A stretch of 45,995 nucleotides of DNA. Origin: Oligoflexia bacterium (lineage in GTDB: Bacteria > Bdellovibrionota > UBA1018). The stretch spans positions 1-45,995 of the forward strand of contig JACMQW010000070.1 in assembly GCA_014376785.1 (NCBI GenBank). The letters run 5' to 3'. Position numbers and translations under genes: made by a program. Below are positions 1 through 13,027 of this stretch, one piece after another. Numbering within the stretch: the stretch's first letter is position 1; the number at the start of each line of letters is the position of its first letter. The notes under the pieces were generated by a model, which was not told the DNA's origin, ran no database searches, and was given only the letters and a program-made list of their open reading frames with translations.

Positions 1-603
1 AATGGATCGGTTTAAGTTCTTTTGGATGATCTGCGGAGTGATGATGTGGGTAGCCGAGTAGCGGTTCACGACGATCTGGACCATCTCTGGCGGGAAAAGG
101 AGTTCCGCGATTTTTCCAAGAATGCGTTTGGTTTGGTTGATCACGATGACATCTGCGGTGGTCACGACGAAAATCGCGGTCGCCGATTCCATGACCTTCA
201 TTGCGGAAGGATCCGTTCCTTGGCCGCAGTCCACGACGACGAAATTGAAGACGTTCGTGATGCCCTTCAAAAATCTTCCGAGCCCATCAAGATCGAGGTC
301 TCGGGCGATGATCGCGTCACGAGGCGCTCCGATATACGAATAGCCTTGAGCGGCGTTAATCATGAACGGTGCGAGCGCTTTAGGATCGAGCGGACCCGCA
401 GGCATTTTAGAAACATCCACAATCGACTTCTGCGGGTTTTGGCCGAGGATAATATTCTGATCCCCAAGCGCAGATAGATCGAGGTCAACGAGCAGAGGAC
501 GTTGTTTAAAATTTTGGAGATAAGCAATCGCCAGATTTGCTGCGAAAATCGACTTACCGACTCCGCCCTTTCCCCCGACTACCGCAATAATATGTCCTGC
601 CAT
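1..603 (-). CDS. cpaE: CpaE/TadZ-like MinD/ParA-family ATPase of the tad locus (3' end cut by the window)
   Basis: The reading frame is open from the ATG at 603 to the window edge, giving the first 201 residues. It begins with a deviant Walker A motif, GGKGGVGKS (residues 10-18). LLVDLDL and VVVDCG follow, as expected for a MinD/ParA fold. It lies 21 bases after the secretin gene and is probably co-transcribed with it. In the family, CpaE/TadZ proteins localise the Tad machine at the pole or membrane. The usual N-terminal receiver-like domain is missing, because the ATPase domain starts at residue 1. Assignment to CpaE/TadZ rather than a generic ParA rests mainly on context. The C-terminus is not visible. 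Confidence 0.85.
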   Translation of the reverse strand, partial: MAGHIIAVVGGKGGVGKSIFAANLAIAYLQNFKQRPLLVDLDLSALGDQNIILGQNPQKSIVDVSKMPAGPLDPKALAPFMINAAQGYSYIGAPRDAIIARDLDLDGLGRFLKGITNVFNFVVVDCGQGTDPSAMKVMESATAIFVVTTADVIVINQTKRILGKIAELLFPPEMVQIVVNRYSATHIITPQIIQKNLNRSI

Positions 604-624: not shown

Positions 625-2373
625 CTATTTTTCGCTCGCCATTCCGCGCTTCACTCTGAAATTTCGTTTGAGATCTTCGGATCCTTCCGCCGCATCCTCG
701 ATGACCTGCGGAGTAACGAAGACGACAAACTGACCCTTCGTTTTGGAAAAATTTTTCGTCCGCTTTAAATTGAAAAGCGGAGAGGTGGCGCCGCCGGCGT
801 CACTCGAAAACTCACCATCACCGAACTTATCCTTGTTGAATCCGGTATTCACCGTGTTGCTGTCTAAACCACCGATCGCCGCGGATTCCCCGGACTTCAC
901 GTAGAGGTTTGTGCTCATGTTCTTCGTCGTGATGATGGGCTGTCCGCCCGAATAACCGATGAGGTTCGAATTATTCAGCGTGATCTGCACTTCGACTTCT
1001 TCGCCCTGTCCAAGTACCCTCGGGGTCATCTTCGCGCTCAGTCCGACTGGATTCTTAATCGGATTCACTTGGCCATTCGCGCCGACCGAATTCACGATGA
1101 TGTCGGTCTGATCCTGAAACGAACCCTCGGTGCCACTTTTCACAATAATGGTTCCCTGCTTCAGAATGCGGGCAAACCCGGCGTCCTGTGCACTCTGGAG
1201 TTTAGGAATCAGAGAGGAAAGCGTGGCGGTGAAAGAAGCCCCACCCGCTCCGGTTCCATTGGCGGTTTGCCCATAGCTGAGCGATGGCTCGGCGGTAAAA
1301 CCCGGCGTCCATGTAAATCCGAATCTGCGCGAATAATCTTTTGCGAGCTCCACGAAGTACACGGTCACGCGTACGAGCTTGTCTTGTTTCTTTGGTGGCT
1401 GAGGATTCAGAACGATAAAGTTATAAACATAGTCACGACGAGCGAGGCTGGTCGCGCTCGCGTCGTTGATCGCGAGCTGATTTCCGGGCCGAACTTCTGG
1501 GAAATAGAGCCTGGCGACTTGTTCGGAACGGCGGGCTTGATCGAGCTGATCGACCGTCCCTTCGAGAAAGAGTAACCCATTCACCACCCGAGTTTTCACG
1601 TTCGGTGCAAAGGTCGATAAGTCTTCCTGAATTTTTTTCGCTAGCGCCGTGAGCGCGAGCGGTGCAATTTTCGCAAGCACCAGAACCGAATCCGCGTAAG
1701 GCTTTTGGTTGGTGACCGCACGGAGTCTCGCATAATCATCCGGTACGAAGACTTCCCCATCGATGACGATGGTGGGTCCGACCACTTTTACTTCGAGTCC
1801 TTCGATATCGCGCAGTAACTCCCGAATTTCCCCTGCGCGTCGAAGCAAGTTTGTGGAAGTCACCGTCACATCGAAAATAATTTTGATCGTGCCTTCGCCG
1901 TCGCGAACCGTGACCGTCGTCTCCCCACCTTTTAAAGGCTTGAAAATCAGCTGGCGTCGTTGCTCGCCGATTTTTACGACGGTGACTGCAGAGATTTGGG
2001 TATTCCCCACTTGAATCGCTTGAGGACTGCTGTCGACGTCGAAATCGAGATCGACGACTTTATCTTCTCCGGTTGCGAGACGCACGGGCCTACGGTCAGC
2101 TTTTGCTTCCGAAATGTCTTTGGTGAATCGCGATTTACGGTGAGGCTCGCGGGCTTTGCGGGTTTTCGAGACGGGCTTGCCGGTCTCCACCGGAATCGGC
2201 TCGCCGCCGACAGACGGAAGGTCGCCTGCAGTGTTTCCTTCGCCCGTTGTTTCTGCGGTACCGAACGATTCATCCGGAGTGTCTTCACCGGCTGCGAACG
2301 CAGAATGCGAGTTCGAAATGGTGAGGCTCATCAAAACGGCTGAGGTTAAAAAATTCAGGCTTCGGTTCTTCAT
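625..2373 (-). CDS. cpaC: Tad pilus outer-membrane secretin CpaC/RcpA
   Basis: A 582-residue protein with a cleavable signal peptide (about residues 1-27, ending in SAFA). It should form the outer-membrane channel through which the Flp pilus leaves the cell. Residues of roughly 90-170 match the pilus-formation N-terminal region. Two BON-like segments follow (about 175-300), and the C-terminal part from about 335 has the beta-rich secretin character. Its start codon overlaps the end of the CpaB gene by 4 bases (ATGA type), so the two are translationally coupled. The order CpaB, CpaC, CpaE matches known tad/cpa loci. Length is a little above most CpaC proteins because of a Pro/Glu-rich linker after the signal peptide. 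Confidence 0.93.
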   Translation of the reverse strand: MKNRSLNFLTSAVLMSLTISNSHSAFAAGEDTPDESFGTAETTGEGNTAGDLPSVGGEPIPVETGKPVSKTRKAREPHRKSRFTKDISEAKADRRPVRLATGEDKVVDLDFDVDSSPQAIQVGNTQISAVTVVKIGEQRRQLIFKPLKGGETTVTVRDGEGTIKIIFDVTVTSTNLLRRAGEIRELLRDIEGLEVKVVGPTIVIDGEVFVPDDYARLRAVTNQKPYADSVLVLAKIAPLALTALAKKIQEDLSTFAPNVKTRVVNGLLFLEGTVDQLDQARRSEQVARLYFPEVRPGNQLAINDASATSLARRDYVYNFIVLNPQPPKKQDKLVRVTVYFVELAKDYSRRFGFTWTPGFTAEPSLSYGQTANGTGAGGASFTATLSSLIPKLQSAQDAGFARILKQGTIIVKSGTEGSFQDQTDIIVNSVGANGQVNPIKNPVGLSAKMTPRVLGQGEEVEVQITLNNSNLIGYSGGQPIITTKNMSTNLYVKSGESAAIGGLDSNTVNTGFNKDKFGDGEFSSDAGGATSPLFNLKRTKNFSKTKGQFVVFVTPQVIEDAAEGSEDLKRNFRVKRGMASEK

Positions 2374-3203
2374 CGCCGTTGTCCTGCAGTGTTTCGTTGG
2401 ACTCGACCGGCGTCCGCGCCTAAAATGTCGCTCATCATGGTCGATCCGAAATTTTTACGTTCGGTATCGTCGTTGTTTCTCAGCACGAGCGTAATCGCGC
2501 TATCGCCATTTCCATTCACAAGCGCGACCATCTGGGCCTGGTCGGGTTCGACTTCTAAAGTGACCGTATCGAAGGAGGTGTCTTCATTCAGAGAGCGGTA
2601 AGCCATTTTTTGGCCTTCCATCTCCAACTTCCGAGGAATGTTGTTGGTCACGTTCTGGCCTACTGAGAGCACGACCACATCTTGGAGGATGGTTTTAGAA
2701 ACTTTGTTTTCTTTGCCCCCACCCATATCGAGTACTGCGATCACATCCACGCGGTCTCCGGGCTTAATCAGCTTGGAAACGCTTGATTGGTTCGTCACAT
2801 TCATCGCGATCGCGCGACGTCCGGGCGCCACTTGCGGAGAAAGACCCGTGCGAATGCCCGGCTCCGTGATTTTATTGTAAGCGACCTGTTCGCCTTTTTT
2901 AATCGGTACGATCGCGACCGAACCGACGATCGATCGCAGACTCTTCACGGTCTCGTCATCTTGGGTCGCTTTTTCAAAAAAGATCGCTGCCGGCTCCCGA
3001 AAAGTCTTCGGGATCGCCTCGAGTGCGAGCATGTCTTCGGTGATCGTTTGACTCTCTTTGATGTCGAGTTTAGCCTTCACCACTAAGACGGTCGTTCCGT
3101 AGCGTTTTTGGGCACGTTCTTCGACGTCGCTGACCCAACTGGAAACGAGGAAGACAGAGAGCAGCGCGATTAAAATCGCCATCGTCATTGCACGATTATT
3201 CAT
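2370..3203 (-). CDS. cpaB: Flp pilus assembly protein CpaB/RcpC (SAF domain)
   Basis: A 277-residue protein with one N-terminal membrane anchor (about residues 7-23) followed by a periplasmic SAF-like domain (about 39-105). The C-terminal part has the ARVDVIAVLD-type motif seen here as GDRVDVIAVLDMGGG, typical of the RcpC/CpaB family. In known Tad systems it works with the secretin in the periplasm and affects pilus stability. It overlaps the TadE-like gene upstream and the secretin gene downstream by 4 bases each, so it sits in one tightly coupled operon. The last 30 residues are polar and not conserved in character. Confidence 0.92.
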   Translation of the reverse strand: MNNRAMTMAILIALLSVFLVSSWVSDVEERAQKRYGTTVLVVKAKLDIKESQTITEDMLALEAIPKTFREPAAIFFEKATQDDETVKSLRSIVGSVAIVPIKKGEQVAYNKITEPGIRTGLSPQVAPGRRAIAMNVTNQSSVSKLIKPGDRVDVIAVLDMGGGKENKVSKTILQDVVVLSVGQNVTNNIPRKLEMEGQKMAYRSLNEDTSFDTVTLEVEPDQAQMVALVNGNGDSAITLVLRNNDDTERKNFGSTMMSDILGADAGRVQRNTAGQRR

Positions 3204-3757
3204 TGGTCTTGCCCCCTACAAAAATCAAACACGGTTTTTTCGCCGATATTTTCTGCACTCGCGACCACGACGCCCTGAGGAGTGACCACCACGTTCGTTT
3301 GGGTACAGAGGGCAACCGTAGTGCGAATGCGGACTTTCGAGCGATCTTCGGGCTGGGCTTGAGCGGGTCCTTCCGAAGCCGCCGCACCGGTATCTCGAGC
3401 GACCACTTGGGTGACCGCGACCGCAGTCCCGCCAGTATCATCCACAGGCTGGTCAGCCATCCCGATCACCATACGGTTGAATCCTGTTTTGATGAATTGG
3501 TCTTCAGCGCTTCCTTCTTTTCGGAAAGACAGACGCGGGTAATAAGGACTGTTGAATGTGAGCCAGGTGGCCTGTTCACGAGCATAGCGTTGGTTCACGA
3601 TCGACATCTGAATCGCCGTATTTGTGCGCACCATGACCACAATTAATCCGAGGAGAATCGGCAGCATGAAAATAAACTCGAGCACGCTCTGTCCGCGCTC
3701 ATTTGCGAAGACCACGTCTACTCGATTGTTTTTCCCTGCCCTATCCCTAGCAGCCAT
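3200..3757 (-). CDS. TadE/TadG-like minor pilin
   Basis: A 185-residue protein with the prepilin-type signature GQSVLEF near the N-terminus: Gly22 followed five residues later by Glu27. A hydrophobic helix follows (about 28-45). TadE/TadG-like pseudopilins are cleaved by the TadV peptidase at such sites and are needed for pilus assembly. The rest is a polar, probably periplasmic domain with two cysteines near the C-terminus. It overlaps the previous pilin gene by 11 bases and cpaB by 4. The family assignment is by motif and context; whether it is TadE-like or TadF-like cannot be decided. Confidence 0.85.
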   Translation of the reverse strand: MAARDRAGKNNRVDVVFANERGQSVLEFIFMLPILLGLIVVMVRTNTAIQMSIVNQRYAREQATWLTFNSPYYPRLSFRKEGSAEDQFIKTGFNRMVIGMADQPVDDTGGTAVAVTQVVARDTGAAASEGPAQAQPEDRSKVRIRTTVALCTQTNVVVTPQGVVVASAENIGEKTVFDFCRGQDQ

Positions 3758-4367
3758 TGTCGATTTGTCCTTTCATCTGACCCATGGTGGAGAGGCACTC
3801 CTGATAGGAAGGATCTCGTCCAAGCCAACTTTCGCTCGTCAAAATCGCCTGCCCCTTCGCCGCGGTCGGTGCCGATCCCGGTCTACCAATGGGTAAAACG
3901 AAAAGACGGCTCCTAAATGTGTATCGGACTCCCTGCATCCAACTTAAGTCGTAATTCCCAGGATCAAATCCAGGCCCCCCCCCGATCGACGCCCCTTTGA
4001 CGGTGTCATCTTCTCCGCCCTGGCCGACCGCGATCATCGGAAAGCGGTCGTCATTCGACGCCGTTCCCCTCTTCACCATCCGAGTGAGCACGAGCTTCGC
4101 ACGGTCTTCTTGGTCTGCGCGAGTGGGGCCGGCCGAAAGGTAAGCGCGCGCTGACATAAACGTGGCGTATTGGACGAAATTTCCCCAGGAAAGAATCAGC
4201 GCGAGTTGGATGAAGAAAAAAAGCAGTCCAAACACAAGCACGATCGAAAGTGCAAATTCGATCAAAGACTGGCCCGATTCTGACTGGGCACCGCGCAAAA
4301 TCGATCTTTTCCCGCGGAAATCTCGATGCGGAACACCTGAACTTCTCTTTTTAGATCTGCGAAACAT
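3747..4367 (-). CDS. TadE-like minor pilin
   Basis: A 206-residue protein with a basic N-terminus, then the prepilin-type motif GQSLIEF (Gly32, Glu37) and a strongly hydrophobic helix (about 38-60). This is the classic TadE/TadG layout, with the remainder on the periplasmic side. A C-terminal pair of cysteines is visible (residues near 193 and 206). The gene follows the third Flp-type pilin after an 84-base gap and overlaps the next minor pilin gene by 11 bases. The ATG at 4367 has a purine-rich GAGAGGAGAGA stretch just upstream as a ribosome binding site. Confidence 0.86.
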   Translation of the reverse strand: MFRRSKKRSSGVPHRDFRGKRSILRGAQSESGQSLIEFALSIVLVFGLLFFFIQLALILSWGNFVQYATFMSARAYLSAGPTRADQEDRAKLVLTRMVKRGTASNDDRFPMIAVGQGGEDDTVKGASIGGGPGFDPGNYDLSWMQGVRYTFRSRLFVLPIGRPGSAPTAAKGQAILTSESWLGRDPSYQECLSTMGQMKGQIDNGC

Positions 4368-4451: not shown

Positions 4452-4736
4452 TTAGTGAGGATTAATAAAAAGTTTAATCTTCCCACCACTCAGAATACGC
4501 GGATGATTTTCAGGCGTTCCTTCGTCGAACCCTTTTGCTTTCGCGTTTCCGTATTTATAAACGTTTGCGTAAGACCCCACGATCGGACCCGCCAGACGCT
4601 CGGCGAGTTTGCCTTTTTCAATCGCGACCATCAGTCCCATGTAAATAAAGACCACGATCGAGAGAATTAGCACGTACTCGATCACGGCTTGTCCAGACTC
4701 CGGCTGAAAATTTCGACGCGCTCTTCTCAGCTCCAT
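4452..4736 (-). CDS. Flp-type pilin-like protein (third copy)
   Basis: A 94-residue protein starting at the ATG at 4736. The frame is open further upstream, but that part lies inside the peptidase gene and is unlikely to be used. The motif GQAVIEY (Gly15, Glu20) and the helix YVLILSIVVFIYMGLMVAI are Flp/TadE-like. Unlike a normal short Flp pilin, it carries about 50 polar residues after the helix. It is probably a minor or pseudo-pilin. It overlaps the end of the peptidase gene by 10 bases, which supports translational coupling. Confidence 0.8.
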   Translation of the reverse strand: MELRRARRNFQPESGQAVIEYVLILSIVVFIYMGLMVAIEKGKLAERLAGPIVGSYANVYKYGNAKAKGFDEGTPENHPRILSGGKIKLFINPH

Positions 4737-5329
4737 AAACTGATCCCCCAGCGAGTGAGCGGATTTCCAAACCAAAGCCAAACTGCAGCCACTGCAATCG
4801 AAATCCCAAACGGCATCTTCAAACGAGCATCCGCGACTGGAAATTCGGTTTCTAATCCCGGGGTCACAGCCGTGAGTAGAAAGCGGTAAAACTTCCGAAT
4901 AAAGGGCTTCATGCGACCCGTGACGAACAGAATGCAAATGGCCAGGGCTCCGCCAACTAGGATCGACAGAAGAGCCAGATCGAGAGAAAAAGTAAGGGGC
5001 TTTTGACCGACCACTCCCGCTGCTCCCGAAAGCGCGCTAAACGCCATGAGGAGTTTCACATCTCCCGCTCCCAACATTCCTGCGAACCAAAGAATGCCGA
5101 AAAGAGCGAAGGCGATTAAGATTCCCAGAGCACCATAGAAAAATCCGACCGGGCCGTTCATGAAAAAAGAAAGCCCGAGACCAAAGGCCATCGCAGGCAA
5201 CGTCAGCCAATTATAAATTTTGCGCGAACGAAAGTCCGTGAATGAAGCTGCGACCGCGACGATCGCGATCCAGGCCCCGATCCACTCGGCTTCAGTTAGG
5301 CGGGTGAGGAAATCAGTTTTGGTAGACAG
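4727..5329 (-). CDS. tadV: Prepilin peptidase TadV/CpaA (A24 family), probable CTG start
   Basis: A polytopic membrane aspartic peptidase that trims Flp prepilins. The two catalytic aspartates are visible: Asp32 in SFTDFRSRKI and Asp90 in GAGDVKLL (GxGD motif). The second is followed by several membrane helices. No ATG, GTG or TTG exists upstream of the first catalytic motif. The first such codon (TTG at 5200) would delete it. The frame stays open to 5380, and a CTG at 5329 is preceded by GGGAGG with about 10 bases spacing, so it is taken as the start (200 residues). It overlaps the second Flp gene by 17 bases. A start at an ATC codon, or a sequencing frameshift, is less likely but possible. 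Confidence 0.85.
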   Translation of the reverse strand: MSTKTDFLTRLTEAEWIGAWIAIVAVAASFTDFRSRKIYNWLTLPAMAFGLGLSFFMNGPVGFFYGALGILIAFALFGILWFAGMLGAGDVKLLMAFSALSGAAGVVGQKPLTFSLDLALLSILVGGALAICILFVTGRMKPFIRKFYRFLLTAVTPGLETEFPVADARLKMPFGISIAVAAVWLWFGNPLTRWGISLWS

Positions 5330-5573
5330 AAAGCGGAGCCCTCCCGGTTTTGAGGTCTTTCTCGAGCTGACCGCCGAGCTTTAAGACCCCACCATCCAGA
5401 GCTTTAAGGATACCACGAGCGAGAAGTCCCGCTCCTACAACTGTGACACTGAGTAAGAGAATGTATTCGATGACGCCTTGGCCGCCTTCATCGTCAAGAA
5501 ACGCACGCATGAATTGAGAAAGGAGAGACCGGATTCTCCGCTCCCCCGTTTTTCTCGATTTCGATTCGCTCAT
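5313..5573 (-). CDS. Flp-family pilin (second copy)
   Basis: An 86-residue pilin with a basic leader, the cleavage motif GQGVIEY (Gly31, Glu36) and a hydrophobic helix (about 37-55). A longer-than-usual tail ends in SVYQN. Flp pilins are the major fibre subunits of Tad pili after cleavage by TadV. It follows the first Flp gene after 8 bases and precedes the peptidase gene, which it overlaps. Which of the three Flp-like proteins is the main subunit cannot be told from sequence. Confidence 0.88.
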   Translation of the reverse strand: MSESKSRKTGERRIRSLLSQFMRAFLDDEGGQGVIEYILLLSVTVVGAGLLARGILKALDGGVLKLGGQLEKDLKTGRAPLSVYQN

Positions 5574-5581
5574 CGAAGTCC

Positions 5582-5773
5582 TTACATCTGATCGAATTTG
5601 CCGAGGTCATCTCCGAGTTTATCCACTCGATTTGAGATGAGCTTCCCGACCTGATCTTTGAACTTCATGGCGATCATCACCACAACGGCCAGAATCAAGA
5701 TGTACTCCGTCGTACTCTGACCTGTTTCGTCGCGGAAGAACCGCTCTAAGCTCTGTTTCAGGCGTTGTTTCAT
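5582..5773 (-). CDS. flp: Flp-family pilin (first gene of the operon, likely major subunit)
   Basis: A 63-residue protein of typical Flp size. It has a short basic leader, the cleavage motif GQSTTEYILIL (Gly18, Glu23) and a hydrophobic helix, then a short amphipathic tail. It is the first gene after the promoter at 5846-5875 and has a good ribosome binding site (GGAGAGGATT before the ATG). Position and size make it the best candidate for the major pilin; this is inference from other tad loci. Confidence 0.88.
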   Translation of the reverse strand: MKQRLKQSLERFFRDETGQSTTEYILILAVVVMIAMKFKDQVGKLISNRVDKLGDDLGKFDQM

Positions 5774-5919: not shown

Positions 5920-6651
5920 CTAAAATCTCAGGAAGGCGAAAGTCGAATTGTCCGAGAACGTCCGTGCTCGAAGGAATTCTTCCGGATCAAACGCTGGAGA
6001 CTCAAGCTGCAAGCGCTGGAGTTCATCTCGGATCTCAGCTCGTACCCCATCCGTTTGGAGGAGCAACCAATCTCCGCTTCGAATTCGAAATTCGACCACT
6101 TCGGGCTCGAGGTCTTCGGTCATACCCATCGCCATCAGAGGAATCGCCTCGTCCGGCCGAGGGTCGACCGAAAAAGGATCGACCAACCGGGCGTAAGTTC
6201 TCGGAGCGACGAGTTCGGTAGCCAACCCCTCTCGCATGAGCCAAGCGGAACACCCGCCGATATTTGCTAAAGCAAAAAGATCCTCGTCGAGAAAAGCAGC
6301 GAGAACAGACGAGCCTCCGCGAAAATTCGCGGTCTTTGAAACGTTGTGCTCGAAAACTTTTCGATTCGCATGAATGAGGGCATTAAAAAGGACGTTGCCG
6401 GCCAAAGAATAATAGCGTCTGAGCACAAACGGCAGCGTGGCATCGTGGTCTCCCGCTTCTTTTTCCAAAAATCCGAGAACGGATTCACAAGCGACTTTCG
6501 ACGCTCGTCCGCCCGCGTCCCCCCCGCCGAATCCATCGGCAATAACAAAAAGACCGCGCTCTTTTTTTGCGAGAATGAAATCCTCCTGCAAAGGGTGATC
6601 GCCTTGCGTGGAAAAAAGCGTCAGTGATCGAAGAACCGGTGATCTACTCAT
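5920..6651 (-). CDS. PP2C-family protein serine/threonine phosphatase
   Basis: A 243-residue soluble PP2C/PPM phosphatase. Metal-binding aspartate motifs are visible in order: QED (22-24), ADGFGG (39-44), QTDG (199-202) and SDNST (233-237). The usual GDSR motif reads GGCSAW (132-137), so its Asp is lost. The family removes phosphate from Ser/Thr of proteins. The gene overlaps the preceding FHA gene by 8 bases and is the last of a six-gene run beginning with tadC. The likely job is to reverse phosphorylation read by the three FHA proteins encoded just before it. No partner kinase is in the window. Confidence 0.88.
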   Translation of the reverse strand: MSRSPVLRSLTLFSTQGDHPLQEDFILAKKERGLFVIADGFGGGDAGGRASKVACESVLGFLEKEAGDHDATLPFVLRRYYSLAGNVLFNALIHANRKVFEHNVSKTANFRGGSSVLAAFLDEDLFALANIGGCSAWLMREGLATELVAPRTYARLVDPFSVDPRPDEAIPLMAMGMTEDLEPEVVEFRIRSGDWLLLQTDGVRAEIRDELQRLQLESPAFDPEEFLRARTFSDNSTFAFLRF

Positions 6652-9028
6652 GAGGAGCTTCTTCCGTCTTATCGGATTTGAAGTTGAGGTAAGATTGCAT
6701 TTTTCTCTGCGCGCGTTGGTAATAGAGACTGCCTTCGGGGGCCATTTTTAAGATAGCCGAAAAGCGGTCGTGCGCAGTGGTGAAATCACTGTAGCTCTCC
6801 GCGATCACCGCTTCGGTATAGAGAATCTTTGCCCGCTCAGTCAGAATGTCACGGATCCTCTCCATGCCCGCCCACCCGAGGGGATGGGTCGGATCCACTT
6901 CGGTTGCCAATTGGAATTCTTTGAAAGCAGCCGCAAGGTCCGCCGCTTGCTCGAGTTCTTTTGCCTTCACCAGGTGAGGCTCACGAAGATCCCGAATCGA
7001 ATCTTTGCACGTCTGGATCATGGTCCCTGCTTTTCGTAAAAGCACGGAATCGATCGACCCCAGTTCGGCTACTTTTCGGTAGATATCAATCGCCTGACGA
7101 AATTTTCCTGCCTTATGAAGTTCGAATCCTTCATTGTAGGTATCCCACGCGCGCTTATCGATCTCTTGCTGAACGAGCCGCTCTTGCTCGACGCGAGCAC
7201 GCTCTTCGAGCCAAGCTTCGATTTCAGTCTTCCAGCCAGAGACCGAGGCATTATCCGGATCAATCGCTAAAATTTCGCTGAAGGATTCTTTGGCCTGTTC
7301 GTATTTCTTGGCCGTCATGAAGCCTCGAGTCTGCTTCTCCAGATCCAGGATATGCGCTTTTAATTTGGCTTCTTCTTCTTTGCGTTTGGCTTCTTCTTCG
7401 ATGGCGTCCTTACGACGCTTCCCTTCCTGAGCGTAACGTTCGATTTCTTTGGCTTGGCTGTAATCCGGAAGGATCGGATAAACGCGAGTCTGAACCTCAT
7501 AGATGGCTTTGTCGAAATCTTGCTGCCGCAGAAAGTCCGTCGCTTTCCGAACCGCTTCGTCGATTTGAGCCTTTTTCTCAGGCGTTAGAGCATCATAATC
7601 AGGCGAAACGGAAGGACGCTTCTCCGTATTTTTCTTCACGGTCGCGACCTTGGCTTTCGGCTTCTCTACTAATCCGAGTTCATCTTCGAAGTACCAGCTC
7701 AAAAATAAACCCACGACCAATACAACCAGGATCTTCTGGATCGGTTTCAGGGTTTTAAAGTTTCGGACGTACTTTTCGTAAACCGCTCCAAGCCCCTTTC
7801 GGGCCGGTGGGGTAGGCTGTCCTTCAGAAGGAGGGAAGCTGGTCTTTACGGTGGCCGAATCAGTTTTAAGATCGAGTGAAGGTGCCTCAGTCGAGAGGGG
7901 TGAAACGGAAGTAAACGCCGCTTCGGTTGGAATCGAGACGGACTCCACTGGTAGGAATTGGTCTTTCTTTTTTTCGTATTCTCCGTTTAAAGCGACAAAA
8001 CGGATCTCGACATCGCCCACTCTTAAAAGGTCGTCATGCGAAAGTTCGACGTCCGTGACACTCCGGCCATTTAAGTAGGTTCCGTTGGAAGACCCGAGAT
8101 CTTTTACGCGGTAGCGATTTCCTACTCGAACAATGGATGTATTCTTTCGTGACGACTTCTTATCGTGGAGGACGATGTCGCATTCACGACCCCGGCCTAA
8201 TGTGATTTCATCTTTGATCAGATCAAAAGAATCCACATTCGCGAGACCGTCCGAAATTTCCAGCCGTGCCTCGACAAATGACTTCAGAATGTTCGTGGCA
8301 GCGTCTTCATCAATCGGAATGGGCGAAATCTCTTCAACGAGATCCGGACTCGAACCATCCAGTCCTCCATCGAATCCGATATTGAGCTCAGGCAGCACTT
8401 CCTCTTCAACGGTCGAAGGGCGATCAAAGAAATTCGTGCCTGGATCTGCGGACTCACTTTCCGCAGTACTAGTATCCCCGAGAATCGGCTGCGCTAACTC
8501 CGGCGCACTTTCCGCACCCTCGACTGTGAGCTCAGAGTTCAGGCTGAGTCCGCTAAAGGCACTTTCCCCAAGGGGGGAAGTCGGACGATCACTCGGGAGA
8601 GGATCGGCTTTTTGCATTTCAAAATCCGGAATCATGAGTGTCGCGTCGTTCTCATTCGGAACGGAAACCGGAGCGGGCGCAGCCTCTCGGACGACCTCCC
8701 GAATGACTTCCCGAACCACTTCTCGCACAGTTTCTTTCTTAGCTTCCAAACTCATTCGAAAGGGACCGATTTCGACGACGTCTCCTTCTTTTAGCAGAGC
8801 CCGCGTGCACTCGACCCCATTCAACCGAATCGGGGCAAAGTCGCTTTGTTTTTCAATCTGCACTCCTTCTGAAGTTTTGCGAATCAGGGCGTGTCTTCTC
8901 GAAACAGCCCGGTCCTCGAGCCGAACGACATTTCCCTCACCACGACCGACTGAGATCTCGGTATCCAATGATTGGGAGCGAACATTTTCGCCTTCGCGGG
9001 TGATTAAAAGCACGGGGGCTGCGCTCAT
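6644..9028 (-). CDS. Membrane protein with two FHA domains and a TPR-like C-terminal half
   Basis: A 794-residue protein. FHA domain 1 spans about 26-95 (GRGEGN and SRRH present, but the GSSNGT loop reads KQSDFAP). A VREVVREVIREVVREA repeat (101-116) and a long acidic linker follow. FHA domain 2 spans about 274-348 (GRGREC and GSSNGTYLNG present, but the conserved His of SxxH is replaced by Asn). One membrane helix lies at about 432-447. The C-terminal half, about 490-794, has TPR-like helical repeats and a charged coiled coil (about 535-565). FHA domains bind phosphothreonine peptides. The C-terminal half should be periplasmic. It overlaps its upstream and downstream neighbours, so all are one operon. 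The exact partner is unknown. Confidence 0.88.
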   Translation of the reverse strand: MSAAPVLLITREGENVRSQSLDTEISVGRGEGNVVRLEDRAVSRRHALIRKTSEGVQIEKQSDFAPIRLNGVECTRALLKEGDVVEIGPFRMSLEAKKETVREVVREVIREVVREAAPAPVSVPNENDATLMIPDFEMQKADPLPSDRPTSPLGESAFSGLSLNSELTVEGAESAPELAQPILGDTSTAESESADPGTNFFDRPSTVEEEVLPELNIGFDGGLDGSSPDLVEEISPIPIDEDAATNILKSFVEARLEISDGLANVDSFDLIKDEITLGRGRECDIVLHDKKSSRKNTSIVRVGNRYRVKDLGSSNGTYLNGRSVTDVELSHDDLLRVGDVEIRFVALNGEYEKKKDQFLPVESVSIPTEAAFTSVSPLSTEAPSLDLKTDSATVKTSFPPSEGQPTPPARKGLGAVYEKYVRNFKTLKPIQKILVVLVVGLFLSWYFEDELGLVEKPKAKVATVKKNTEKRPSVSPDYDALTPEKKAQIDEAVRKATDFLRQQDFDKAIYEVQTRVYPILPDYSQAKEIERYAQEGKRRKDAIEEEAKRKEEEAKLKAHILDLEKQTRGFMTAKKYEQAKESFSEILAIDPDNASVSGWKTEIEAWLEERARVEQERLVQQEIDKRAWDTYNEGFELHKAGKFRQAIDIYRKVAELGSIDSVLLRKAGTMIQTCKDSIRDLREPHLVKAKELEQAADLAAAFKEFQLATEVDPTHPLGWAGMERIRDILTERAKILYTEAVIAESYSDFTTAHDRFSAILKMAPEGSLYYQRAQRKMQSYLNFKSDKTEEAPHE

Positions 9029-10080
9029 GAGCGGCCTCCCCCTTTCTGTGCTCGACCCAGTACGATTTTCAACTGGTCTTTCGCCTCAGTGAAGGCTGGA
9101 TTTTCCGGATCTCGAAGTAAAAGGCGCTGAACGGCTTCAAAATGCGCCCGAGCGGTTTTCAACTTACCCGCATCGAGGTCGCGTCGACCTCGTTCTAAAT
9201 GTTGGCGAACTTCGATTTCAATCGCTTGATCGGACTGCTGCAGATAGCTGCGAGCAAGTCCATGGGCAGGACTGATTTGGAGTGCGGTTTCGAACTGTAC
9301 TCTCGCCCGAAGGTAATTTTTTTCTCTAAACTCACGGAATCCAGCTTGAAAGAAAGTTTCCGCGCTATTTAAAGCGCTCGTCATCGGCATCGCGGGTAGG
9401 TAGGAAGCGAGGTCGCGCTCGGCGTCTTTTTTATCGGCTGATTTATCTCCCACTTTCGCCGTCGGAGAGCCCGTTTTCTTCGAAGCATCATCGAGAAACA
9501 GCCAGAGCCCCATCAGGACCACTGCGCCGATGAGGATTTTTTTGCGCTTCTCTGCGGATCCAGAATTTCCACCCGCCGCTGCGCCCATTCCGGCTACTCC
9601 GGCTAAGCCGCTGAAATCGGCAGAAGGCACTTCACGCGCGACGCTTGCTTTAGGGGCTGCAACCGCAACCTCACGACCCGCTAAATATTCTGCAGGTAGA
9701 TTTTTTGCGGGGGTGTGTAGAAACTTCGTGCCCGACTCATCGGTAACGAATTCGAAGGCCGTCTCACCCACGGTAATGATGTCGCCCGCGTTTAAATCGG
9801 CCTCACGGGTGACCTTTCCATTCCAAATCACCCCGTTCTGACTTCCCAAATCTTTGAGTCGCCAGGTTCCCGAGGGAAGTCGTGCGAGCTCTGCGTGCCG
9901 ACGGGAAGCGCGCAAATCCGCAAACACGACATCATTTTCATCGCCTCTTCCGAGGGTGGCTTTTTCAGCCATCAAAACAAACAGACTCCCGCGATCGTGA
10001 CCGTGCACGACCTTAAGCCTCGCCCGTTCGCCGGGCTGCTTCGGAGTTTTCCACTGCTTAAATCGGAGTGCGGTAGACAT
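9025..10080 (-). CDS. FHA-domain membrane protein with TPR-like tail
   Basis: About 351 residues from the ATG at 10080; a TTG at 10095 would add five residues and lies nearer to the GGAGG at the end of the previous gene. The FHA domain (about residues 42-112) keeps all hallmark motifs: GRGDEN, SRRH, GSQNG and WNG. A Gly/Ala-rich linker leads to one membrane helix (about 180-196), then TPR-like helical repeats to the end. Same architecture as the larger FHA protein that follows, with a 4-base overlap. It is likely to read a phosphothreonine signal in the cytoplasm and pass it across the inner membrane to the pilus machinery; this role is inferred. Confidence 0.87.
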   Translation of the reverse strand: MSTALRFKQWKTPKQPGERARLKVVHGHDRGSLFVLMAEKATLGRGDENDVVFADLRASRRHAELARLPSGTWRLKDLGSQNGVIWNGKVTREADLNAGDIITVGETAFEFVTDESGTKFLHTPAKNLPAEYLAGREVAVAAPKASVAREVPSADFSGLAGVAGMGAAAGGNSGSAEKRKKILIGAVVLMGLWLFLDDASKKTGSPTAKVGDKSADKKDAERDLASYLPAMPMTSALNSAETFFQAGFREFREKNYLRARVQFETALQISPAHGLARSYLQQSDQAIEIEVRQHLERGRRDLDAGKLKTARAHFEAVQRLLLRDPENPAFTEAKDQLKIVLGRAQKGGGRS

Positions 10081-10104
10081 TTTTTTAGGCGACAAAAGGG
10101 TCGC

Positions 10105-11733
10105 TTAGTCCTCCTTCCGAATGAGGTTGAAAACAAAGCACTTCGGATCTCCGAAATGACCAAATGAGACCACCTGCATTTGAAACGGCATCCCGGAGAA
10201 TTCGAAATCCTCACTGGCTCCATCCGTTCCAGGCGAAGCGCGTTCGCAAAGCTCGCTGACCAGGCCACTGAATGCCTGATCTCGAACCACTCCTGCGAGC
10301 GGTTGACCTTCGCTTGATTCCAGTCGAACTCCTGTGATCTCTTCGAAAATGGAGTTCATGAAAAGGACTCTGCGATCTTCATCCAGCACCGCAACTCCGC
10401 TTTTGGAGACTGAACCGATTGAACGAAGTGGCGCCAGTAAATCATTCGCGCTCAAGGCACCTGCGACGACTGCACCGCCCGCCCCTCGGTCATCCCCTCT
10501 CGGAACACGCTTCAATGCGGAATCAACCACGTCCCAGAGTGAATCGATTTCACTGAAATGCACGGAGGATTTAAAATCCATGGATTCGCCACGTAAAACT
10601 TGATCGATCTTGCGGTTCATCTCTTGAAAAGGGCGAATCGTGATTCGGTAAATCAGGTAAAAAATGAATAATCCAATCGCAATCGAAAGCACGAGAGTAT
10701 GGGAATAGACCAGCCAGAGCTCCGAGCCGTCAGCAGAGGCCGTAGAAGTGTCGACGCTCACAATGGCCATCGCCACCGTGTGATTTTTTCCCTGCGCCGG
10801 GTTTAAGACTTGGATGGGTTCGATTGCCACGATCGTGTTCGAATCTGATTTCGTGACCAGCCCATCTTGCTTTCCATCATTGAAAAGTTTTCGTGCCCTC
10901 ACTGCAGTGAGGGCTTCGGAACCGACGTCAAAATAACGACCGGCTTTATCCGCGGGTGCGAGGATTTTGTTATCGAGATCGACGATCGTAACGACGCGCA
11001 CGCCCCACGCTTTTCCGAAACTGCCCAGATCGAGCTTCGATTCTGCGTTCGCGGCGAGGTAGCCCGTATTTCTTTCCGCGAGCTCATGGGCCATGACTTT
11101 AGCGCGCTGGGACACTTCGCGCTCGATGGCTTTCTCTTGCTGAGACATCAACGGCGAGAGTGACACAAAAAGGTTTAGAACGAGGTACAGACCAAACAAA
11201 GATCCGATGACCACTCGCCATTCGAATCGTTCGTTAAAACCCAGAAAATACGGAAGCACGGTTCGATCGAAATGAAATTTAAACTTCCCGATGATGTCTT
11301 TTGGCATGGGAGCCGACTCCGGCTCTGGCGCGTGCGGAACTTCGGCTGAGTCGTGGGAATACGAGTGGGAGTTCGGTAGTTGACCGGGAAACGCGACCGC
11401 GTTTGACGGTATGGCGGGCGCAGTTACGAGAGATTGGTCGGTGAGTTCGAACACGAATTCACCCACACTGATTCGGTCTCCCGTATGGAGGCTCTTTTTC
11501 GAGGCTAAACGGCCGTTTACGAAAGTGCCATTCGAAGATCCTTGATCCTCTAAAGCCACTCCCGACTGATTAATGACGAGCACACAATGCTTTTTAGAAA
11601 CATTCGTCGAATGTAAAACGATTTCATTGCCCGAATGACGTCCGATAGAAAACGATCCCGTTCCGACGGCGAACGTGGAACCGCGCGCGGGTTGCGCGTG
11701 CGGAGGTCCAGCGATGACCGTTAACCGAAACAT
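10105..11733 (-). CDS. FHA-domain membrane sensor with periplasmic loop and PAS domain, no kinase domain
   Basis: A 542-residue protein starting at the ATG at 11733 (GGAG seven bases upstream). Domains in order are: an FHA domain (about 25-99, with GRHSGN, SKKH, GSSNGTFVNG); membrane helix 1 (about 173-193); a periplasmic sensor-like segment of about 150 residues; membrane helix 2 (about 342-364); a HAMP-like linker; and a C-terminal PAS domain (about 444-539). It looks like a histidine kinase or chemoreceptor that has an FHA input and no output enzyme. The start overlaps the DUF192 gene by 13 bases. It may couple an envelope signal to phosphoprotein binding. The ligand is not predictable. 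Confidence 0.87.
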   Translation of the reverse strand: MFRLTVIAGPPHAQPARGSTFAVGTGSFSIGRHSGNEIVLHSTNVSKKHCVLVINQSGVALEDQGSSNGTFVNGRLASKKSLHTGDRISVGEFVFELTDQSLVTAPAIPSNAVAFPGQLPNSHSYSHDSAEVPHAPEPESAPMPKDIIGKFKFHFDRTVLPYFLGFNERFEWRVVIGSLFGLYLVLNLFVSLSPLMSQQEKAIEREVSQRAKVMAHELAERNTGYLAANAESKLDLGSFGKAWGVRVVTIVDLDNKILAPADKAGRYFDVGSEALTAVRARKLFNDGKQDGLVTKSDSNTIVAIEPIQVLNPAQGKNHTVAMAIVSVDTSTASADGSELWLVYSHTLVLSIAIGLFIFYLIYRITIRPFQEMNRKIDQVLRGESMDFKSSVHFSEIDSLWDVVDSALKRVPRGDDRGAGGAVVAGALSANDLLAPLRSIGSVSKSGVAVLDEDRRVLFMNSIFEEITGVRLESSEGQPLAGVVRDQAFSGLVSELCERASPGTDGASEDFEFSGMPFQMQVVSFGHFGDPKCFVFNLIRKED

Positions 11734-12089
11734 AATTCGTCTCCTACGAGAATTCCGAGTCGCTCGATACTTCCCACTGGAAGTTCCAACGTTCCACTTG
11801 CCTGAAGGTCCGTGATCGGAAGGAATTTCCATGGCCGCGCTCCTGCACGAACCGAGGTAACGACATTCCGTTCATTCAAAAAAACCACGTCGATCGGAAT
11901 CGACATGCACCACATGTGGATGCTCGAGCAGCGAGGGAAGAAGATTCCCTCTCCCACATCTGCTCGCGTCTTTCCGATCCAACCGCGAAGCCGACTGAAA
12001 TAGGACTCCGCGATAATGCACTTATCGGAAATTATCCTGTGATCTTTTAGGTTTATGAGTCGAATCATTCGAATCCTATTTTTCGTCAT
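11721..12089 (-). CDS. DUF192 family protein
   Basis: A 122-residue protein with DUF192 features: GWIGKTRADVGEGIFFPRC, IHMWCMSIPIDVVFLN and the VRAGARPW segment. DUF192 proteins are small, beta-rich and of unknown function. The start at 12089 lies 14 bases after tadC; an internal Met at 12068 is an alternative. It sits between tadC and the FHA sensor gene and overlaps the latter, so it belongs to the tad locus by transcription. There is no signal peptide, so it is probably cytoplasmic here. Confidence 0.85.
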   Translation of the reverse strand: MTKNRIRMIRLINLKDHRIISDKCIIAESYFSRLRGWIGKTRADVGEGIFFPRCSSIHMWCMSIPIDVVFLNERNVVTSVRAGARPWKFLPITDLQASGTLELPVGSIERLGILVGDELCFG

Positions 12090-12103: not shown

Positions 12104-13027
12104 TTAGAGGCCGCCGCCTTTCATAAACCCAAGAATAAACGGCCCTGCGACCATCAAAATCACCGCGGGCAACAAAAACATGACACTTGGTAGGAGGACT
12201 TTTGAAGCGGCTTTTGCTCCTTCCTTCTCTGCACGGAGAAGGCGCTCGGAACGAATTTGTTCAGATTGTTGGCGCAAGATTTTTCCAATTGATGCCCCCA
12301 TCTGATCGGCAGAGATCAGAATAGCCACGAAGCTATTCACTTCAGTCATTCCGATGCGATTCGACATTTCACGAAGGGCTTCTGCACGAGAAGAACCCAC
12401 TTTAATTTCGCGAAGCATTTGCCCGAGTTCCTCAATAAGGGGGCTCTGGGCGGCTTTATCGACCACTTTTTGAATGGCACCGATGAAATCGAGTCCCGCT
12501 TCGGTCGAGAGAGAAAGTAAATCCACGACGAAAGGCATCGATCTTAAAATTTGTTTTTGACGTTTCGTAATCAGTCCATTGACCCAAAAGTCTGGGTAAA
12601 AGAAGCCTGCGATTCCGGTACCGAGAATGGTGATGAGCGAGAGGTCTAAAAAGCCCATGGCATTCAGAACGAGCCCCACGACCGGGAAAAAGAAGATCAA
12701 AAAACATTTATAAGCGATGAACTCATCTGGAGTGAGCTCCTCGCGAAGCCCTGCGGTGATGAGCTTCCGCCGATAGTCGATTCGACGATTCTCCCAGAGC
12801 TTCTTCCCTCGAACCATCGGCACGACGTACTGAGTGAAGAAGGGTCGCGTTGTTTGGACCAGTTTTGACGAAGACTTCCGGTTTCGAAGGTCAGCCAAAT
12901 TTTCTTGGGCAGCGCTTCGCTCCTCCTCAGAAAGCAGCATGCGCGACACGAGGTATACGGCCAGAAAGACCGCCAAATACCCGGCGTAAAGCACTAAATC
13001 GCGATCACTGCCTGAAAGAAGGGACAT
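12104..13027 (-). CDS. tadC: Tad pilus inner-membrane platform protein TadC (type II secretion F family)
   Basis: A 307-residue protein with membrane helices near the N-terminus (about 12-30), at about 110-150 and at the C-terminus (about 275-302). The cytoplasmic T2SSF domain lies between them (LPFVVDLL-like segment MPFVVDLLSLSTEAG and the REMSNRIG region). TadB and TadC form the inner-membrane platform on which the TadA motor acts. The start at 13027 has GGAG close upstream. It is the first gene of the FHA/PP2C operon and is separated from the pilin operon by about 6 kb. TadB is not next to it, which is unusual, since the two are normally neighbours. Confidence 0.9.
   Translation of the reverse strand: MSLLSGSDRDLVLYAGYLAVFLAVYLVSRMLLSEEERSAAQENLADLRNRKSSSKLVQTTRPFFTQYVVPMVRGKKLWENRRIDYRRKLITAGLREELTPDEFIAYKCFLIFFFPVVGLVLNAMGFLDLSLITILGTGIAGFFYPDFWVNGLITKRQKQILRSMPFVVDLLSLSTEAGLDFIGAIQKVVDKAAQSPLIEELGQMLREIKVGSSRAEALREMSNRIGMTEVNSFVAILISADQMGASIGKILRQQSEQIRSERLLRAEKEGAKAASKVLLPSVMFLLPAVILMVAGPFILGFMKGGGL

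Follow-up and report, generated by a model that had tools for sequence, protein, structure and literature searches.

Gene content of the locus

The analysed window, 45,995 nucleotides that form the start of contig C40 in a 3.2-Mb draft genome of an Oligoflexia bacterium, contains a run of genes that all lie on the minus strand and proceed leftward from position 13027. The run opens with tadC (12104..13027), which encodes the T2SSF inner-membrane platform protein (Pfam T2SSF, E-value of 8e-15). It continues with a DUF192 gene (11721..12089; Pfam E-value of 4e-14), three genes for FHA proteins, a gene for a PP2C-like protein and a set of flp and cpa genes. The DUF192 gene was present in the covered loci, sitting between tadC and the FHA genes as a steady member of the block.

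The first FHA gene (10105..11733) encodes a protein of about 542 aa with an FHA domain (11461..11649), a transmembrane helix, a periplasmic Cache-like domain, a second transmembrane helix and a PAS domain. The start at 11733, as given in an earlier note on this DNA, is better than the start of the longest ORF at 11832, as Met34 of that ORF is the conserved start. Two TPR proteins with a transmembrane helix follow: a Bd0473-like protein with one FHA domain (9025..10095), and a Bd0474-like protein with two (6644..9028), whose FHA-1 and FHA-2 domains are encoded at 8765..8956 and 8015..8206. The Bd0475-like, PP2C-like gene (5920..6651) is the last of the block. Pfam FHA matched the three FHA proteins with E-values of 4e-17, 5e-15 and 8e-25, the last representing two copies, and PP2C_2 matched with an E-value of 3e-7. 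The PAS match (E-value of 1e-4) was just under the PAS cut-off, and TPR matches were weak but repeated. The four genes that the earlier note had placed here on the minus strand, three for FHA proteins and one for a PP2C-fold protein, are thus backed by Pfam.

Further to the left, two flp-type prepilin genes were recognised from sequence, one with homologues in relatives (5582..5773) and one at 5313..5573 (EGGQGVIEYILLLS). Next are genes for a CpaA-type prepilin peptidase (4727..5305; Peptidase_A24, E-value of 4e-14) and a further pilin-like protein (4452..4736; GQAVIEYVLILS), the latter identified from its sequence and from the loci of relatives. Two TadE-like minor pilins follow, the first with a TadE E-value of 9e-5 (3747..4367) and the second with a weak match (E-value of 0.08; 3200..3757), and then cpaB/rcpC (2370..3203; RcpC, E-value of 7e-25), the secretin gene cpaC (625..2373; Secretin, E-value of 2e-12) and cpaE (1..603), which is cut by the contig end.

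The remaining tad genes are on contig C33, which overlaps C40 and on which the cpaE reading frame extends into cpaF, with tadB next (locus L045). Across the family, cpaE (TadZ) is fused in frame to cpaF (TadA) in a single ORF of about 715-725 aa (window 1-603; L045 4872-6749), and both the CbiA and the T2SSE domain lie within it. Directly downstream of tadB in the same genome is an ORF with RHS-repeat/DUF6531 content (L045 2156-3925). A pilT-like ATPase gene (L008) was considered as the tad ATPase and rejected, as it encodes a PilT protein and the tad CpaF is located on C33. Contig C44 (L011) carries a second, short CpaF-like ATPase gene and a secretin-like gene, which suggests another pilus or secretion locus in the genome.

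Conservation of the block and its coupling to tad genes

Searching 35 genomes of the family for the PP2C-like protein gave strong matches in about 31, and 26 neighbourhoods were read. Within contig limits, all 26 loci kept the order DUF192, FHA-PAS, FHA-TPR, 2FHA-TPR, PP2C and flp/cpa. TadC alone served as an independent bait in named genomes and retrieved 80 contigs. Nearly all Bdellovibrionota contigs that extended past TadC had DUF192 and the three FHA genes next. The gene order that the earlier note had proposed to look for in relatives was, within contig limits, recovered in full in the family and as the TadC/FHA order beyond it, and this recurrence indicates that the arrangement is not due to chance.

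In four genomes (G299-G302; loci L088, L092, L105 and L106), tadC is parted from the FHA block. These loci were considered as counter-examples and rejected, since in all four genomes the block lies elsewhere, beside the flp-cpa operon. A convergent gene of about 190 aa comes next after the lone tadC in at least three of the four. Within family f15, the block adjoins TadC, and flp-cpa genes were not within the fetched stretch beyond the block. Among the loci read, the block was never found lacking both TadC and flp-cpa as neighbours. The earlier note had named FHA and PP2C genes far from any tad locus as an observation that would speak against it; the block instead follows the tad genes both ways, always occurring with tadC, flp-cpa or both.

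We conclude that the module is genuine and conserved phylum-wide, with the four-gene block locked to Tad/Kil-type pilus genes throughout the Bdellovibrio group. This coupling suggests that the timing of pilus assembly or action is set by a phospho-signal whose kinase is encoded at another locus.

FHA domains as predicted phosphothreonine readers

Of the four FHA domains, three have a nearly invariant set of phosphothreonine (pThr) pocket residues. FHA-PAS proteins kept the pocket (G-R, S, H and N-G) in 24/24 sequences. The residues G64, R65, S79, H82, N101, G102 and T103 (numbered on the longest ORF) were invariant in 12 rows across families, where few other positions of the protein are. The pocket was also kept in 25/25 FHA-TPR proteins, apart from one NG change, and in FHA-2 of all 26 double-FHA proteins, where GR, S and SxNG are retained and the His is often Asn. 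The one degenerate FHA domain of the block is FHA-1 of the double-FHA protein, which retains GR and SRxH and has lost the NG loop, with SxFAPxxxNG in its place. Median identity of the FHA proteins to the members of this locus is otherwise 36-41%. The near-invariant pocket, read from these alignments, is a new point. It also means that an intact pThr pocket in an FHA protein, a feature of the threonine pathway of type VI secretion systems (T6SS), is present here. The earlier note's idea of a pThr-reading module tied to the Tad locus, with single membrane helices and TPR parts, is accordingly supported.

The AlphaFold model of the FHA-PAS protein had a pLDDT of 74.5, with a WalK model as its best full-length Foldseek match, in addition to the FHA domains of GarA and OdhI. 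The Pfam model for the YscD cytoplasmic domain also matches all three FHA proteins. Assignment of the FHA parts to the SctD/YscD ring proteins was rejected because they retain the pThr pocket and fall far short of the NCBIfam SctD cut-off.

The linker between FHA-1 and FHA-2 is unconserved except for a threonine located 31-36 residues ahead of the FHA-2 GR (T245 here; codon 8294..8296). It is preceded by acidic residues and followed two positions later by a hydrophobic residue (acidic-x-T-x-hydrophobic). The motif occurs in 26/26 family proteins and 27/31 others, where shuffled linkers gave expectations of 1.8 and 3.0, respectively. By sequence, the best PDB matches of FHA-2 are to GarA. In GarA, OdhI and the Bdellovibrio protein DgcB, the FHA domain binds the protein's own N-terminal peptide (PMC6733907). 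The block resembles these proteins, as far as its sequence tells, in having a conserved acidic-motif threonine in a flexible segment on the N-terminal side of an FHA domain. It differs in that FHA-2 is part of a membrane protein that also has a TPR arm in the periplasm. With this self-peptide binding as a precedent, we read T245 as a candidate FHA ligand. As a candidate phosphosite, it is among the most defensible of the new points.

Decay of the metal site in the PP2C-like protein

AlphaFold predicted a confident PP2C fold for the PP2C-like protein (pLDDT of 90.8), and its best Foldseek matches include tPphA, PstP and the T6SS phosphatase PppA. With a sequence profile, the best PDB match was 2y09, a tPphA entry that has VGA for the wild-type VGD; the protein studied here has VGxC, which is the same kind of change. 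The third-metal Asp of the GDS motif was found in 0/26 family members, 0/10 f15 members and 0/6 slot orthologues. The remaining ligands are eroded to different degrees in the family, with E23 and D39 each present in 25/26, D201 in 19/26 and D234 in 16/26. The M1/M2 ligands (E, D, D, D) occur all together in 14/26 members, including the protein of this locus, and most f15 members likewise retain E23, D39, D201 and D234. One lineage has a 226-aa protein in the PP2C slot with no ligand left, which is still homologous to the PP2C-like protein (hhalign probability 96.8).

As a control, we aligned seven PP2C-cNMP paralogues from the family in the same way, and we also compared three canonical non-tad PP2Cs. 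The GDS Asp was kept in 7/7 and 3/3 of these, respectively, and the paralogues had their other ligands nearly throughout. An alignment artefact was thus rejected as the source of the metal-site loss. In studied PP2Cs, mutating the metal-coordinating Asp residues, including that of the third metal, abolishes activity, and all three metals were considered essential (PMC3375153). A recent review records disagreement over whether the third metal is strictly needed (PMC12088040). Since E23, D39, D201 and D234 are retained here and in most f15 members, the PP2C-like protein may have residual phosphatase activity. The loss of the GDS Asp in every member tested, together with the erosion of the other ligands in many, makes a T6SS-like kinase/phosphatase pair unlikely as a conserved mechanism.

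Against this decay stands an invariant threonine loop. The loop D-x-[DE]-x-T-x-P-[FLY] (residues 67-78; 6418..6453, with F as the last motif position in this locus and T72 encoded at 6436-6438) was found in 26/26 family and 10/10 f15 members, in 4/4 f11/f18 members with looser acidic spacing and in the 6/6 metal-free slot orthologues. L176 is the sole exception among the tad members. The loop is absent from the equivalent place in the PP2C-cNMP paralogues and the canonical non-tad PP2Cs. Its AlphaFold confidence is lower than that of the fold (pLDDT of about 70). FHA recognition is known to involve a hydrophobic residue at +3 (PMC6733907), and the presence of such a residue in the T72 loop makes phosphorylated T72 (pThr72) a plausible FHA ligand. 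The loop may also have a structural role. The combination of metal-site decay and an invariant threonine loop is, like T245, one of the most defensible new points from these comparisons.

The PP2C-like protein has a median identity of 52%, versus 36-41% for its FHA neighbours. It thus evolves more slowly than they do, which argues that it is under selection and not a relic. On sequence grounds it is probably a pseudophosphatase rather than a dedicated eraser. Literature searches on PP2C proteins in connection with Bdellovibrio pili, and on pseudophosphatases in connection with FHA proteins and secretion systems, found nothing. In one genome of family f1 (G009), the PP2C-like protein (L042) is the most diverged of the family, and the genome has 16 Pkinase matches, versus 1-7 in its relatives.

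A candidate kinase outside the locus

No Pkinase match was found at the locus; the three Pkinase genes of the genome lie on other contigs, in line with one of the two options of the earlier note, a kinase encoded elsewhere. Pkinase genes were detected in 35/35 family genomes, several of which have just one. The best candidate writer, likewise among the most defensible new points, is a 670-aa membrane-type kinase on contig C34 that adjoins mpl. It has an intact kinase domain and C-terminal repeats that appear PEGA-like when judged by eye, not by Pfam. Relatives of this kinase with 41-68% identity were present in 13/13 loci examined, several of them from single-kinase genomes, and were located beside mpl in nine.

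At an E-value of 1e-40, a relative was detected in 42/46 genomes of a sample of the phylum, some of which do not have the block. At the same threshold, none was found in G118 and G132, both of which have the PP2C-like protein (G132 also has the FHA genes, at L176). Co-inheritance of the kinase as a partner of the block was not a discriminating test, as such kA-type kinases occur also where the block is absent, and the PEGA-like kinase is a candidate only.

Comparison with described systems

The block corresponds to Bd0470-Bd0475 of B. bacteriovorus, with Bd0475 in the PP2C-like slot by gene order. According to PMC6561027, Bd0470 is TadC, and a Bd0474 transposon mutant attaches to prey and neither kills nor rounds it. 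Bd0474 is described in PMC12034629 as a protein that binds Bd0075 and has a pair of FHA domains and a TPR domain outside the cytoplasm; a contact between Bd0473 and Bd0475 is predicted there. The two loci are alike, as far as these papers describe Bd0470-Bd0475, in TadC, the FHA proteins, the double-FHA-TM-TPR architecture of Bd0474 and a protein in the PP2C slot, which in B. bacteriovorus is the hypothetical protein Bd0475. The f15 loci have the same arrangement; the locus studied here differs in that the block is joined to the flp-cpa operon. The relevant passages of PMC6561027 and PMC12034629 contain no description of Bd0475 as PP2C-like.

This match means that FHA proteins at a Tad/Kil locus have already been published. 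In the passages of PMC8460266 on this subject, FHA proteins are reported at the Myxococcus Kil/Tad locus and related systems in Bradymonadales and Bdellovibrio, and a role in contact signalling is proposed. Neither the presence of such proteins at Kil/Tad loci nor the idea of a contact-signalling cascade is thus new (PMC8460266, PMC6561027). Compared with Kil as described in passages of PMC8460266 and PMC12075869, the locus shares the Tad core genes (CpaF, TadB, TadC, CpaB, secretin and Flp) and several FHA proteins encoded with them. It differs in the ATPase: KilF has an N-terminal FHA domain according to these passages, whereas CpaF is here fused to CpaE and has no FHA domain, with no FHA match on contig C33. 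As the N-terminal FHA domain of KilF is a Myxococcus trait, its absence bears on membership of a Myxococcus-like subtype. A PP2C-like protein is not mentioned in the passages on the Kil system in PMC8460266 and PMC12075869.

The T6SS pathway of PpkA, PppA and Fha (PMC3953482, PMC5995506) likewise has FHA proteins and a PP2C-fold protein at a machine used in contact. In contrast to that pathway, the block is without a linked kinase, the metal site of its PP2C-like protein is eroded, and its FHA proteins are anchored in the membrane and carry TPR or sensor parts. The TagF and PppA domains of A. tumefaciens exert a repression that leaves TssL phosphorylation unchanged (PMC3953482, PMC5995506), so a PP2C-fold partner can act without erasing. 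Variants of the type VII secretion system (T7SS) also have FHA parts of the secretion machine with kinase, phosphatase or pseudokinase partners (PMC11217815). T7SSf, for example, has a PPM phosphatase and no kinase was found there. The machine is a different one and its FHA domain is borne by the ATPase; the pairing of an FHA part with a pseudoenzyme is a parallel (PMC11217815).

A proposed assembly switch and its alternatives

In the most likely model, to which we give an even chance, the block is a pThr-reading assembly switch of a Kil-type Tad pilus, with a pseudophosphatase partner and an outside kinase. Gene order, fold, pocket conservation, metal-site loss and threonine-motif conservation are read from sequence, whereas phosphorylation, the partners bound, the identity of the kinase and any effect on the pilus are inferred. 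A membrane Ser/Thr kinase from elsewhere, with the PEGA-like kinase next to mpl as the best candidate, would phosphorylate T245 ahead of FHA-2 and possibly also the exposed-loop residue T72 of the PP2C-like protein, both of them conserved threonines of the block. The pThr peptides would be bound by FHA domains, within or between proteins. Binding would alter the contacts of the membrane-anchored TPR arms and the Cache/PAS sensor with TadC and the pilus platform, and so license the pilus to assemble or act when prey is touched. The PP2C-like protein would mainly be a docked pseudophosphatase, serving as FHA ligand or scaffold, and the likelier eraser would be a housekeeping PP2C-cNMP enzyme.

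Such a switch bears on how predatory bacteria turn on a contact-killing pilus when they touch prey, for which a signalling cascade was proposed earlier. Our analysis supplies three candidate readers, one candidate kinase and two exact threonines, and the equivalents of T245 and T72 are addressable in the genetically tractable predator B. bacteriovorus. It also implies that annotation as a PP2C phosphatase is no sufficient ground to take the gene for the off-switch.

A bolder version makes the pseudophosphatase itself the phosphorylated ligand, which would be a novel type of control device. A distant sensor kinase would phosphorylate the T72 loop on a dead PP2C fold, which would have lost its active site and retained its phosphosite, and reading of this loop by the membrane FHA-TPR proteins would license the predation pilus; we consider this rather unlikely. 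The opposite reading, close to that of the earlier note, is a classic T6SS-like circuit of kinase, FHA protein and phosphatase, in which an active PP2C-like enzyme erases the FHA ligands and resets the pilus. The PP2C fold with PstP, tPphA and PppA among its best matches, the four ligands kept here, in 13 further members of the family and in the majority of f15 members, and the conserved operon with the FHA genes are in line with it. However, none of the members tested has the GDS Asp that canonical paralogues retain, D201 and D234 are each missing from part of the family, one lineage is ligand-free, and mutation of metal-binding Asp abolishes activity in studied PP2Cs (PMC3375153). We therefore regard this circuit as unlikely. 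Of the control circuit that the earlier note had drawn, pThr readers tied to Tad and a kinase elsewhere are supported, and the phosphatase arm is not supported as drawn; that reading was right on the readers and the absent kinase and probably wrong on the phosphatase.

The FHA domains might instead act as a phosphorylation-independent scaffold, like those of SctD/YscD in type III and EssC in type VII secretion, and form a membrane collar around TadC. The match of the YscD model to all three proteins would fit such a collar, for which the TPR arms are suited, and the pseudoenzyme partner resembles the pairing of the EssB pseudokinase with the EssC FHA domain (PMC11217815). In EssC, however, the pThr pocket is lost (PMC11217815), whereas here the pocket residues G, R, S, H and N are the most conserved positions of divergent proteins and FHA-1 alone is degenerate; we see some possibility in the scaffold, on the doubtful side. 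It is very improbable, finally, that these are independent signalling genes that merely share an operon with tad genes and serve another process. The f15 loci, whose flp-cpa genes were not within the stretch read beyond the block, would be compatible with this, but the block was always beside TadC or flp-cpa in the loci read, and mutants of Bd0474 and of TadC (Bd0470) are both predation-defective (PMC6561027).
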